The notes under the pieces: model-generated
Seen by the model: only the letters and a program-made list of their open reading frames with translations
What the model was told of the DNA's origin: nothing
The model's database searches: none
Assembly (NCBI RefSeq): GCF_010367435.1
Contig: NZ_WJWY01000013.1
Coordinates: forward strand, 1 to 59,390
Direction: 5' to 3'
Origin: Fusobacterium sp. IOR10
GTDB lineage: Bacteria; Fusobacteriota; Fusobacteriia; Fusobacteriales; Fusobacteriaceae
Length of the DNA: 59,390 nt
Made by a program: the position numbers and the translations under genes
Shown: piece after piece, positions 242 to 8,572 of the stretch
Numbering within the stretch: the first letter of the stretch is position 1
Layout: the number at the start of each line of letters is the position of its first letter

Positions 242-493
242 TTATTTTTCATCCTCTGTTTCTTTTTCATCTTCAACTCTATTTTCAAGTTCTATCATTT
301 CAATCCATCCTTCACGAATACGTTCTTTAACAACAATTTCATTCTCAGGATACTTTTCCCTAAATTGTTTTGTGTATTGCTTAATTATTTTTTCACTGTT
401 TGAAGACAAACAATCTAAACAATTTCTATATTCTTCCCCATTTTGTATAATTGGCTTTCCATAAACTTTAACTACAAATTTATCTTTAATCAT
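242..493 (-). CDS. Small hypothetical protein, 83 aa
   Basis: I do not recognise this protein. It is short and hydrophilic, with a CLDC pair in the middle (residues about 26-29) and a very acidic C-terminus rich in Glu/Asp/Lys. There is no signal peptide or membrane segment. I chose the ATG at 493 because an AGGAG motif sits about 9 bases upstream; the in-frame TTG at 502 overlaps that Shine-Dalgarno and is unlikely to be used. It lies downstream of the cysE terminator and appears monocistronic. The CxxC may bind metal, but this is a guess. Confidence 0.6.
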   Translation of the reverse strand: MIKDKFVVKVYGKPIIQNGEEYRNCLDCLSSNSEKIIKQYTKQFREKYPENEIVVKERIREGWIEMIELENRVEDEKETEDEK

Positions 494-566
494 ATCTACC
501 AACTCCTATAAGTACTTTTTTAATTGAAATTCTAGTATACACTATATATTATACACTTTTTTTTAG

Positions 567-2126: not shown

Positions 2127-3635
2127 TTAATCTGCTTTTTTCAAATAAAGAAATATTGAAGCTAAAAGCATAAGTAAAATTACTCCCCATCCAAATACTA
2201 ACTCTCCCATGAAGATACTTATATTACTTGTAAATAATCCTGATAATTTTTTCAATTCTTCTATTAAATTGGATATAACTGTTATTCCTAATATTAATGG
2301 TGTTACATATTTTAATAGGAAATTAAAGTATTTTCCAACTTTTATATCTGAATATTCATTAGCATCTATTCTTATTTTTTCAATTCCATAAATATAACAA
2401 ACCATTATAGTTTCAACTAATCCAAGTGTTGCTATTACATAATTTCCAACATGGGAATCAACTATATCTAATATATAATTAAATCCTGCAAAGGTTGAAA
2501 AACATATACTTCCTAAGAATCCAACTATTGAAATAATTGTAACTATTTTTTCCCTTGAAATTTTAAACTTATCTAAAGTAGCTGTTGTAAAGGCTTCTAA
2601 CATTGAAATACTAGAAGATAGCCCTGCAATAAACAAGCAAAGAAAGAATAAAAATCCTATCATACCTTGTAAAAATACATTTGAAGTTATTGTGCTTATG
2701 GCAATTGGGAAAGCTATAAAAGCTATTCCTGCTCCACTTCCAAAGGAATCAAATTCAACACCCATGTTTGTAACAAGATATCCTAAAGTTGAAAATACTG
2801 TAACCCCTGCAATTATATCAAAGGATGCATTTGCAGCAACTGTTATAATAGAACTACCAACAATATCAGCATCTTCCTTTAAATAAGATCCATAGGCTAT
2901 CATAACACCAACACCTAATGTTGTTGAAAAGAAAACTTGAGCATAGGCTGAAACCCAGATATTTGGATCTAATATTTTTGTAAAATCTGGAGTAAATAAT
3001 TGCTTTAATCCAAACATAGCCCCATTTAATCTAAGGGAATTTATCATAAACATAAGCATCATAATTATTAAAACTGGTGTAAATATTCTAGAAACCTTTT
3101 CGATTCCCTTTGAAATACCTTTTCTCACTATAATTAAATTAGATATCCAAACTATAATTACAAAGAAAAATAAGTACTTGCTTATTCCACTTCTAAAATC
3201 AAAGGGCCCTGAGGCACTTCCTGTTACCATTCCCATTAATTTTCCAGGATCTCCCATAAAATTAACTATTCCAAAGGCATGTCCCAAAGACCATACCATA
3301 AATATCATTGACACTGAGATAATTGTACAGTAAAACATCATTACAACTATAGGGACCATAACTTGCATCCAACCAATCCACTCATACTTTGCACTAATAG
3401 TTTTAAAAGCTTTTATAGATCCACCTCTAATTCTACGACCATATGTATACTCTAATATCATTAAAGGTATTGCACAAGAAAGTAAGGCTACTATATATGG
3501 AAAGAAAAAAGCACCTCCACCATTTTTATACGCTTGAAATGGAAATCTCCATAGGTTCCCAAGCCCCACTGCTGCACCAATAGCTGCAAAAATAAATCCT
3601 GATCGACTTGTCCATAGTTCTCTCTTCTTCTCCAT
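2127..3635 (-). CDS. Sodium-dependent amino-acid transporter (NSS family)
   Basis: This is a member of the neurotransmitter:sodium symporter family (LeuT/TnaT/MhsT-like), a membrane carrier that imports an amino acid with Na+. It has 502 residues with about 11-12 membrane helices. The hallmark first helix (GFIFAAIGAAVGLGNLWRFP, residues about 13-32) contains the unwound substrate/Na+ site. The start follows an AGGAGG site. The substrate is not evident from the protein, but the upstream leader peptide has Trp and Cys codons and the gene is followed by cysK-cysE. Candidates are therefore tryptophan (TnaT-like) or a sulfur/serine-related amino acid. Regulation is probably by attenuation at the terminator 45 bases upstream. 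Confidence 0.92.
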   Translation of the reverse strand: MEKKRELWTSRSGFIFAAIGAAVGLGNLWRFPFQAYKNGGGAFFFPYIVALLSCAIPLMILEYTYGRRIRGGSIKAFKTISAKYEWIGWMQVMVPIVVMMFYCTIISVSMIFMVWSLGHAFGIVNFMGDPGKLMGMVTGSASGPFDFRSGISKYLFFFVIIVWISNLIIVRKGISKGIEKVSRIFTPVLIIMMLMFMINSLRLNGAMFGLKQLFTPDFTKILDPNIWVSAYAQVFFSTTLGVGVMIAYGSYLKEDADIVGSSIITVAANASFDIIAGVTVFSTLGYLVTNMGVEFDSFGSGAGIAFIAFPIAISTITSNVFLQGMIGFLFFLCLFIAGLSSSISMLEAFTTATLDKFKISREKIVTIISIVGFLGSICFSTFAGFNYILDIVDSHVGNYVIATLGLVETIMVCYIYGIEKIRIDANEYSDIKVGKYFNFLLKYVTPLILGITVISNLIEELKKLSGLFTSNISIFMGELVFGWGVILLMLLASIFLYLKKAD

Positions 3636-3679
3636 TGTTCCTCCTAGTTTTTTATTTTTTTAAATTTGTTTATAAAAAA

Positions 3680-3702
3680 AACCTCAGGTTGCACCTGAGG
3701 TT
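3680..3702 (-). terminator. Attenuator-type terminator in the NSS-cysKE leader
   Basis: On the minus strand the perfect 10-bp stem AACCTCAGGT / ACCTGAGGTT with a 3-base loop is followed by eight T residues. It lies inside the transcribed leader, between the leader promoter (3924-3952) and the transporter start (3635). It would therefore stop transcription before the structural genes unless an alternative fold or antitermination intervenes. Confidence 0.8.
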
Positions 3703-3812
3703 CAAATTAATAAATTAACATTAATTATATATACACAGCTACACTTTCCTAATTAATTAATAAACCAAAATTAGTCTGTATCTGTTTTTTATAAAACAAT
3801 TACAAACTTTTT

Positions 3813-3884
3813 TTAGCACCAACACCAAGAAAATGTATTTTCAGAAGATATATTTTTTTTATAATTATTATTTAATTTTTTCAT
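3813..3884 (-). CDS. Putative Trp/Cys leader peptide, 23 aa, ends WCWC
   Basis: A short ORF with a strong Shine-Dalgarno (GGGAGG, 9 bases before ATG) encodes 23 residues starting MKKLNNNYKK and ending FSWCWC-stop, i.e. codons TGG TGT TGG TGC TAA. It begins about 33 bases after a consensus promoter start and is followed by an intrinsic terminator about 110 bases on. This layout is that of ribosome-mediated attenuation (trp-type) or of an arrest peptide (TnaC-type). Trp and Cys are the rarest residues in proteins, so two of each at the C-terminus is strongly non-random. The downstream genes are an NSS transporter, cysK and cysE. Whether Trp or Cys is sensed is not decidable here. No obvious antiterminator helix was found by eye. 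Confidence 0.7.
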   Translation of the reverse strand: MKKLNNNYKKNISSENTFSWCWC

Positions 3885-3923
3885 TTAATACATCCTCCCT
3901 GTTTTTTATTTTGTATTTGAGAT

Positions 3924-3952
3924 ATTTTAGCATTCTTTACTTAAAATGTCAA
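3924..3952 (-). promoter_or_regulatory. Consensus sigma-70 promoter of leader-NSS-cysKE operon
   Basis: On the minus strand TTGACA (3947-3952), a 17-base spacer and TAAAAT (3924-3929). Transcription would start near 3917, about 280 bases before the transporter ATG, leaving a long regulatory leader. Confidence 0.8.
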
Positions 3953-3969
3953 CTTTTTTTAAGCATATA

Positions 3970-5214
3970 TTATGACCTAACTTGACCATTACCTCTAATT
4001 ATATATTTAGTAGTTGTTAGCTCTCTTATACCCATAGGTCCTCTAGCATGCAATTTTTGAGTACTTATACCTATTTCCCCTCCAAATCCAAATTCTCCAC
4101 CATCTGTAAAACGAGTGGATGCATTAACATAAACACAAGCTGAATCCACTTCTTGTAGAAATTTTTCTGAATTTTCAAAGGAAGAAGTTATTATAGCCTC
4201 TGAATGTTTTGTGCTATATTTTTCAATGTGGTCAATGGCCTCTTCTATTGAAGCTACTGTTTTTATTGATATTTTCAAAGAAAGATATTCCTCTTCCCAG
4301 TCTGCATCAGTTGCTAATTTAAAATCCTTTAAATACTTTGAAGCCTTTTCATCTGCAATTATTTCAACTTTCTTTTCCTTTAATCTTTTTTCAATTTCCC
4401 CTAATAAACCTAGTTTACTTTCATGAATTAACAATGTCTCTAGGGCATTACAAACACCTGGTCTTTGAGTTTTCCCATTGATTAGAATATCAATACCCAT
4501 CTTATCATCTGCAAACTCATCTATGTATAGGTGACAAACCCCTGCACCTGTTTCTATAACTGGCACCTTGGATGTTTCGTTAATTGCTTTTTTCAAAGAT
4601 TTTCCACCTCTAGGAATTACAGCATCTATATATTTCACTTCACTTAAAAGTTCCCCAACTAATTTTCTATCTGTTTTTTCTATTAATTGAACAGCTCCCT
4701 TTGGCATTCCAGCCTTAATTCCAGCTTCTATTATTATTTTACTTAACGCTTTATTTGAATTTATAGCATCACTTCCACCTCTTAATATAATGGCATTTCC
4801 TGATTTTAAACAAAGACCAGCTGCGTCCACAGTAACATTTGGTCTAGATTCAAATATCATAGCTATTACACCTATTGGAACCCTAACTTGATCTATTTTC
4901 AATTCATTTTCAAGTTTCCATCCTTTAACTGTTTCTCCTATTGGATCTTGAAAATCTGCTATTTTTATTAGGGATTTTGACATTCCCTCTATTCTTTCTT
5001 TATTTAATTTTAATCTATCTAAAAAGGCCTCTGATAAATTTTTCTTTTTACCATTTTCTATGTCTTTATTATTTTCTATTAATATTTCATCAACTGAATT
5101 AATAAGAGCATCACTCATAGCCCTTAGAATTATATTTTTTTCCTTTACACTTAAGTTTGTTAATTTTCTAGATGCTTCCTTTGCATTTTTACAAATTTCT
5201 TCTATATAGCTCAT
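3970..5214 (-). CDS. proA: Gamma-glutamyl phosphate reductase
   Basis: This NADPH-dependent enzyme reduces glutamyl 5-phosphate to glutamate semialdehyde, the second step of proline synthesis. It has 414 residues, the normal length. It is an aldehyde-dehydrogenase-superfamily fold with the catalytic Cys255 in QRPGVCNALET and the FESRPNVT segment at about 121-128. It lies 9 bases after proB and is the last gene of a three-gene operon that starts with a glutamate-type carrier. The stop is about 20 bases before the start of the leader promoter of the next operon. I saw no strong terminator between them. Confidence 0.95.
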   Translation of the reverse strand: MSYIEEICKNAKEASRKLTNLSVKEKNIILRAMSDALINSVDEILIENNKDIENGKKKNLSEAFLDRLKLNKERIEGMSKSLIKIADFQDPIGETVKGWKLENELKIDQVRVPIGVIAMIFESRPNVTVDAAGLCLKSGNAIILRGGSDAINSNKALSKIIIEAGIKAGMPKGAVQLIEKTDRKLVGELLSEVKYIDAVIPRGGKSLKKAINETSKVPVIETGAGVCHLYIDEFADDKMGIDILINGKTQRPGVCNALETLLIHESKLGLLGEIEKRLKEKKVEIIADEKASKYLKDFKLATDADWEEEYLSLKISIKTVASIEEAIDHIEKYSTKHSEAIITSSFENSEKFLQEVDSACVYVNASTRFTDGGEFGFGGEIGISTQKLHARGPMGIRELTTTKYIIRGNGQVRS

Positions 5215-7793: not shown

Positions 7794-7994
7794 CTACGCG
7801 ATTTCTACGTTAGCTGCTTGAGGACCTTTTTGTCCTTCTTTTACATCAAAAGTTACTGCTTGACCTTCGTCTAAAGTTTTGAATCCTTCTTTTTTGATTT
7901 CAGAGAAATGTACGAATAAGTCATTTCCTTCTTCAGAAGTGATAAATCCAAACCCTTTTTCTGCGTTAAACCATTTTACTGTTCCTTTGTTCAT
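7794..7994 (-). CDS. Cold-shock protein (CspA family), copy 1
   Basis: This is a 66-residue single cold-shock domain, a nucleic-acid chaperone acting in the cytoplasm. Both RNA-binding motifs are present: RNP1 as KGFGFIT (about 14-20) and RNP2 as LFVHFSEI (about 27-34). It differs from copy 2 by a single residue (Asp versus Glu at about 43). It has its own promoter, a leader of about 110 bases nearly identical to that of copy 2, and its own terminator. The long conserved leader suggests post-transcriptional control, as in cspA thermosensor leaders. Confidence 0.95.
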
Positions 7995-8255: not shown

Positions 8256-8456
8256 CTACGCGATTTCTACGTTAGCTGCTTGAGGACCTTTTTGTCCTTC
8301 TTTTACATCAAAAGTCACTGCTTGACCTTCTTCTAAAGTTTTGAATCCTTCTTTTTTAATTTCAGAGAAATGTACGAATAAATCGTTTCCTTCTTCAGAA
8401 GTGATAAATCCAAATCCTTTTTCTGCGTTAAACCATTTTACTGTTCCTTTGTTCAT
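8256..8456 (-). CDS. Cold-shock protein (CspA family), copy 2
   Basis: This 66-residue cold-shock domain protein is nearly identical to copy 1 (RNP1 KGFGFIT, RNP2 LFVHFSEI). The frame stays open upstream, but the start used here is the ATG of MNKGTVKWF at 8456. It has the GGAGG-type Shine-Dalgarno (TATGGAGGTATCACA) and matches the family length; the upstream codons belong to the leader. The two genes have matching promoters, leaders, coding regions and terminators, so they arose by a recent tandem duplication of the whole transcription unit. Confidence 0.95.
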
Positions 8457-8572
8457 TGTGATACCTCCATAAAATACTTTTATTGAATAGATAAAGACTA
8501 GTTTTGAACTTAAGTACTTATTTCGATACCTCATTTCACAAAGCTAAGTTTCTTTTAATCTAATTCATAAAT

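Follow-up and report, generated by a model that had tools for sequence, protein, structure and literature searches.

A predicted ribosome-mediated attenuator with tryptophan and cysteine codons ahead of a transporter-cysK-cysE operon in Fusobacterium

Results

Our computational analysis of a 59,390-nucleotide stretch of DNA from Fusobacterium sp. IOR10 (contig NZ_WJWY01000013.1; hereafter the window) points to a ribosome-mediated attenuator through which poor charging of tRNA-Trp or tRNA-Cys probably switches on a transporter-cysK-cysE operon; the support for this model is wholly computational. The sensing of Trp by the leader, as charged tRNA-Trp, is well supported, and Cys, through tRNA-Cys, is a likely second input that rests on one lineage.

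The initial annotation of this DNA described a promoter, a Shine-Dalgarno sequence, a short ORF ending in Trp-Cys-Trp-Cys (WCWC), an intrinsic terminator and then an NSS-family transporter followed by cysK and cysE. We located all of these parts, and the leader-transporter-cysK-cysE locus lies entirely on the minus strand in window coordinates (Table 1). The spacer between the leader stop and the terminator is 109 nt. In a second genome of the genus, G006, the final seven leader codons and the stop are identical to those of the window (24/24 nucleotides). The exact WCWC pattern, TGGTGYTGGTGYTA, occurs 24 times across 98 genomes of the phylum, and it closes a short, Shine-Dalgarno-led ORF before a terminator only in the window genome (G000) and in G006; the remaining 22 matches were rejected as leaders, being located within coding sequence, out of frame or at other sites. 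Because the only TGGTGYTGGTGYTA copies that are true leaders are those of G000 and G006, and because the RNA element is kept in 16 genomes, the WCWC leader of the window is not a chance ORF. A WCWC-pattern match in another genome (L159, G012:C128) lies in a candidate SAM-riboswitch-type leader, not in a leader ORF.

Table 1. Features of the leader, its RNA segments and the downstream genes, in window coordinates.
Feature	Position	Strand	Details
Promoter	3952-3924	-	-35 TTGACA, 3952-3947; TG-extended -10 TAAAAT, 3929-3924; spacer 17 nt; 11/12 consensus match; G006 identity 27/29
Leader Shine-Dalgarno GGGAGG	3899-3894	-	Read from sequence; present in every family leader
Leader ORF MKKLNNNYKKNISSENTFSWCWC, 23 codons, ending WCWC-stop	3884-3813	-	W20 3827-3825, C21 3824-3822, W22 3821-3819, C23 3818-3816, stop 3815-3813; homologous W-only leaders in relatives
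Segment 0 TACATTTTCTTGG, codons 16-20	3837-3825	-	Predicted ribosome-free partner of segment 3, window and G006
Segment 1 AGTTTGTAATTGTTTT (starts AGTTTGTA)	3808-3793	-	4 nt past leader stop; G006 16/16 identical
Segment 2 AAAACAGATACAGACT (ends ACAGATACARACT)	3788-3773	-	Partner 1 or 3
Segment 3 AGGAAAGTGTAGCTG (family motif TGTATCTG); core TGTAGCTG, 3743-3736	3750-3736	-	Partner 0, 2 or 4
A/U-rich hairpin inside 3:4 antiterminator	3726-3705	-	Predicted in window and G006
Intrinsic terminator	3703-3672	-	Stem 3703-3679 (11 pairs, 5 GC), then T8; G006 identity 29/30
Segment 4 CAGGTGCA	3697-3690	-	Spans the terminator loop and the 3' half of its 5' arm; 3:4 is the antiterminator
NSS-family Na+ symporter, TnaT type	3635-2127	-	NF037979 above cut-off; ATG at 3635
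cysK, cysteine synthase A	2078-1149	-	TIGR01139, 423 bits (cut-off 351)
cysE, serine O-acetyltransferase	1140-622	-	TIGR01172, 244 bits (cut-off 211)

Scanning upstream of NSS transporters uncovered leaders in relatives that have the same layout as that of the window and encode visibly related peptides: MKNYNLIKLNNIASMDAFYWWRS (G004), MKNYNLINKNNITSVDTFYWWRSF (G001), MKIYNLITRKNISSVDTFWWWSF (G003), MKKFYQFNKNINNTSLSHWWSS (G002), MNSFKLNILKNNIASNSSVLFWWWP (G009) and MKKQLDILKINTSLTETVLFWWWP (G065 and others). Downstream of the stop, the family has in common AGTTTGTA...GATACAAACT.ATTTT...TGTATCTG and then the terminator, whose loop or inner arm reads CAGATACA, CAGATATA or CAGGTATA in relatives and CAGGTGCA in the window and G006. 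The element is present in one copy each in 7/7 same-genus genomes and 9 from a second genus; the pattern for its first half is absent from all other genomes of the 98 in the phylum, and a reversed control pattern has no match in any of the 98. A covariance model trained on 10 relatives, excluding the window and G006, matches the window at 3836-3765 on the minus strand (E=2.3e-10) and G006 (E=1.6e-10). Since the model was trained without these two sequences, this test establishes that the window belongs to a new Fusobacteriaceae family of Trp-leader RNAs.

Conservation of the WCWC codons in relatives had been suggested as a check on the initial annotation, and the two amino acids fare differently. 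Each of the 15 leaders read carries Trp codons close to its stop, whereas Cys codons are missing from all 13 W-only leaders and are confined to the two cysK-cysE genomes, G000 and G006. The W-only leaders carry WW or WWW near their ends, and the ends vary across the family (WCWC, WWWP, WWRS, WWWSF, WWSS). In the relatives examined, what follows the element is an MhsT-like transporter, mostly as a lone gene. In G000 and G006 it sits 3' of proBA and 5' of the TnaT-type transporter and cysK-cysE, and an orthologue of the MhsT-like transporter is absent from both genomes (best matches 36% and 35%). Within the 7 genomes of the genus, our searches find cysE and a WCWC leader only in these two, which are also the only ones with a trpB above cut-off and a cysK match at E<=1e-60. 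The WCWC leader and the TnaT-type transporter-cysK-cysE operon co-occur, and do so only in 2 genomes. This coincidence of Cys codons with cysteine genes in the sequences is strong but not proof, because it represents one evolutionary event and the 6-nt repeat TTGGTGTTGGTG is within reach of slippage. Leader ORFs rich in Trp and Cys were not found ahead of cysK-cysE operons in other genera, and a scan of genome contigs, which returned mostly Clostridia and was informative for tnaA synteny, gave none with such leaders.

The genes of the operon are closely spaced, with gaps of 48 nt between the transporter and cysK and 8 nt between cysK and cysE. A terminator scan detected no strong terminator between the three genes, the sole weak match lying inside cysK, so the transporter, cysK and cysE likely share one transcript. 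The sequence relatives of the transporter in the PDB are LeuT and MhsT. Its close homologues lie directly 3' of genes with a tryptophanase-like end in several Clostridia and one Desulfovibrio sp., giving the window transporter both marks of the TnaT type, NSS membership and tryptophanase linkage in homologues. In G000 and G006, a 74% paralogue of the transporter is found near a gene with a tryptophanase-like start; in G002, the gene adjoining the transporter is a tryptophanase by NCBIfam and is the counterpart of this tryptophanase-like gene. TnaT of Symbiobacterium, an NSS protein, is described as transporting Trp (as cited in PMC2494555). Based on this precedent and on the tryptophanase linkage, we propose that the window transporter is likely a tryptophan importer, a substrate assigned only from gene neighbours. 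Three loci (L031, L032, L041) have TnaT-type paralogues near a tryptophanase-like gene, without leader ORFs, and also carry one or two putative HTH regulators whose ends read ...SEKTIYRYLK. Downstream of cysE on the same strand, a small ORF (242-502, minus strand) of about 86 amino acids, possibly shorter given an internal ATG, precedes a terminator at 68-42 and may belong to the operon as its fourth gene; in G006, nothing comparable was seen after cysE.

The four segments downstream of the leader stop can pair in series, as 1:2, 2:3 and 3:4, with segment 4 also forming part of the terminator hairpin. The motif of segment 2 is nearly the same as that of segment 4, so segment 3 must choose between them. 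Counted across 11 distinct sequences on a gapless composite of the four segments, which was used in place of a full-element alignment because MAFFT misaligned segment 3 across the full element, the 1:2 helix is 93% paired. Its outer 8 pairs are 100% paired, and the helix also shows compensatory changes: both bases differ at 3 pairs (10 cells), a signal reached in 0/500 shuffles. The 2:3 and 3:4 helices persist across the same 11 sequences, at 91% and 95.5% paired against 7-70% in slid controls (at most 50% for 2:3 and at most 70% for 3:4), although both counts are biased upward by the use of patterns to locate the composite segments. Both helices show wobble variation and no double changes, as expected if segment 3 is bound to pair with both partners. 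In the window, a T-to-G change in segment 3 creates a mismatch in both 2:3 and 3:4, and because this one base mismatches segments 2 and 4 alike the switch of the window is weaker than that of G006. We looked for a direct antiterminator in which the WCWC codons pair with the terminator and found none. The spacer of about 110 bases, which the initial annotation considered long for classic attenuation and took to make an extra factor or an arrest mechanism possible, is filled by segments 2 and 3 and the A/U hairpin, and we see no need for an extra factor.

We next consider how a ribosome affects these pairings, folding the RNA as far as the terminator loop with positions -12 to +16 of the P site masked as ribosome-bound. 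As the ribosome is swept along the leader, the order of states is alike in the window and G006. In ribosome-free folds, it is segment 0 (codons 16-20) that holds segment 3. Placing W20, C21 or W22 in the A site gives 1:2 together with 3:4 (about 7-8 pairs) in both sequences, and 3:4 still forms with C23 there. With the ribosome at the stop, 1:2 falls, 2:3 rises to 4.3 pairs in the window and 8.4 in G006, and 3:4 drops to 3.4 and 0.8 pairs, respectively, the size of this stop-state switch depending on the fold boundaries, as seen for G006. Of the dinucleotide-shuffled spacers, 3/300 and 2/300 reached the switching score of the real sequences. Sweeps of the W-only relatives run in the same direction as the window for most; those of G004, G003 and G002 are not clean. 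The locus has a translatable leader ORF before the terminator, and the predicted choice between antiterminator and terminator depends on the ribosome.

Under the model that we propose, RNA polymerase would start at about 3918 and a ribosome would follow on the leader ORF. A stall with W20, C21 or W22 in the A site would leave segment 1 free to pair with segment 2; segment 3 would then be available to capture segment 4 from the terminator, and transcription would continue. When Trp and Cys are plentiful, the ribosome would proceed to the stop codon and mask the first part of segment 1, 2:3 would form, segment 4 would be released, and the terminator would form and stop transcription. In a transcript without a ribosome, segment 0 would take segment 3 and the terminator would again form. 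We infer both the kinetics of these steps and termination in vivo. Should the mechanism hold, the RNA would have to respond to a C21 stall as it does to a Trp stall, however the Cys codon arose, so a response to Cys would be expected on physical grounds. Regulation by charged tRNA-Trp, tRNA-Cys or both, as the initial annotation had it, accordingly stands for Trp, on the leader family, the alternative pairings and the folds, and is only probable for Cys.

Discussion

The serious rival to a leader that reads both amino acids is an attenuator of otherwise equal mechanism that senses Trp only, with Cys codons that are incidental, cysteine rarely being limiting enough to matter. Such codons could have arisen, for example, by tandem duplication of the 6 nt TTGGTG in an ancestral W-only leader, and TTGGTGTTGGTG is indeed a perfect 6-nt repeat; the remaining family members sense Trp only, and WCWC occurs in just one lineage. 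However, the Cys codons appear exactly where cysK-cysE joined and in none of the 13 W-only leaders, a C21 stall is predicted to be no less effective than a Trp stall in switching the RNA, and the WCWC stretch is unchanged between G000 and G006. We consider the Trp-only explanation unlikely on this evidence, though well short of negligible. With modest confidence, we favour a history in which a Trp-only ancestor gained Cys codons once cysteine-synthesis genes joined, such that shortage of either amino acid would open the operon. To the same modest degree, we lean toward a two-input leader whose codons track gene content across unlinked pathways, Trp being imported and Cys synthesised.

Two further explanations depart from tRNA charging altogether. 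In TnaC, a Trp lies about 12 residues before the terminal Pro, tnaA lies downstream and there is no intrinsic terminator. The TnaC peptide of the E. coli tna operon is arrested by excess Trp, with Rho-dependent termination (PMC8429421), and the initial annotation allowed for an arrest mechanism. On such a reading, excess Trp (or Cys) would stall the ribosome at or near the stop and induce the operon. The two systems share a Trp-containing leader peptide and a Trp-transport context, the sensor codons here abut the stop, and the transporter belongs to a Trp-transporter family that is often linked to tryptophanase. Against this, holding a ribosome at the stop is predicted to shift the RNA toward 2:3 and the terminator, the off state, and the leader ends differ among relatives, unlike an arrest motif. 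The locus was rejected as a member of the TnaC class, given that the TnaC motif with its Trp-to-Pro spacing is absent, the terminator is intrinsic and the operon is not tnaA; we regard nascent-peptide arrest as very improbable. Slightly less probable still is that there is no regulation at all, merely a constitutive terminator or pause beside a chance short ORF. Short ORFs led by a Shine-Dalgarno do arise by chance in AT-rich genomes, and our case is made from sequence, but an element that 16 genomes from two genera each carry exactly once, with compensatory base pairs and with Trp codons near the stop in every leader read, is hard to reconcile with chance. A T-box at the locus was rejected, as RF00230 matched neither the window at gathering score nor the interval 3600-3980 at E<=5; no Rfam leader or riboswitch family reaches gathering score in the window, where only 5S rRNA matched.

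The proposed attenuator resembles those of trp, his and leu operons (E. coli trpL and hisL; actinobacterial trp, PMC1262725) in its Shine-Dalgarno-led leader ORF, sensor codons near the stop, mutually exclusive hairpins, intrinsic terminator and, here by prediction, read-through on starvation. It differs in belonging to another phylum, in controlling a transporter and in having a segment 2 that repeats the terminator-loop motif. Parity differs as well, as there are five segments and four alternative hairpins here, and for this reason segment 1 has to stay uncovered when the ribosome stalls. In E. coli trpL, segment 1 is covered by the stalled ribosome. Leaders with codons of more than one amino acid have precedents, the thr attenuator having Thr and Ile codons. 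The ilvGMEDA leader is likewise described as responding to multiple amino acids (Lawther and Hatfield 1980, cited in PMC3783181). As in the present case, the genes downstream of these two leaders concern the amino acids of the leader codons, but those amino acids share a pathway, whereas Trp import and Cys synthesis do not.

Cys codons in short ORFs upstream of cysteine genes are known from the poly-Cys uORFs of mycobacteria (PMC1262725; Canestrari 2020, as cited in PMC13236596) and from uORFC-8-2 before cysS in Rhodobacterales (PMC8632094); these leaders contain Cys only and are unrelated in sequence, and those of mycobacteria have no intrinsic terminator. NSS transporters of the Bacillus cereus group are under the control of Trp, Leu and Phe T-boxes (PMC2494555), so that here too an NSS transporter is controlled by charging of the tRNA of its likely substrate; a T-box binds the tRNA directly, whereas in our model a translating ribosome would read charging.

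Leader peptides were once thought to be confined to Proteobacteria and Actinobacteria, bar a his case in Bacilli (PMC2965389), and an early survey found no T-boxes in Fusobacteriota (PMC2494555). In the literature that we searched, no leader-peptide attenuator is described for Fusobacteriota, and neither this leader family nor a Trp+Cys leader is described, though absence there is not proof. Our analysis adds an uncatalogued leader-RNA family for Fusobacteriota. It also supplies a before-and-after case, W-only leaders with a lone transporter versus a W+C leader with cysteine genes, so that the acquisition of new inputs by attenuators becomes directly testable by reporter. In addition, leaders of this kind offer a sequence-based clue to the substrates of poorly annotated NSS transporters.

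Other leaders precede NSS transporters in the genomes that we searched. A second, unrelated Trp leader (g13 WWW; for example, MRAQYWWSYIEKLYNNLKNVRYWLWSIDNISLSM) lies before orthologues of the window transporter at L040 (G029), L042 (G018), L043 (G036), L142 (G071), L143 (G070) and L144 (G072). These were rejected as family members, since in them a leader TGTTAGA pairs with a terminator loop TCTARCA, a different RNA; the pairing is stall-dependent in 4/6 folds, forms without a ribosome too in G071 and is absent in G036. At L047 (G022:C29), a Leu-rich leader, MKNIIVKKLKFNNVLLLLADLL, lies upstream of an NSS transporter (3203-4678, minus strand) with a terminator 111 nt past the leader stop, and by its sequence is probably a Leu attenuator on another NSS transporter. 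At L253 (G015:C5), a leader, MFLNSINWWSSTKFNKLNSTKPNI, followed by a terminator lies upstream of an NSS gene and may represent a third type of Trp leader. A T-box (RF00230) is found ahead of the trp biosynthesis operon of G006 (L231:12663-12392, minus strand), so that, together with the proposed leader attenuator, G006 would have two forms of tRNA-charging control side by side. The trp operon of G000 (L230) keeps a similar terminator, and its contig starts too close to show a T-box. Elsewhere in the window, two adjacent cold-shock-protein genes (7794-7994 and 8256-8534, minus strand) are nearly identical.
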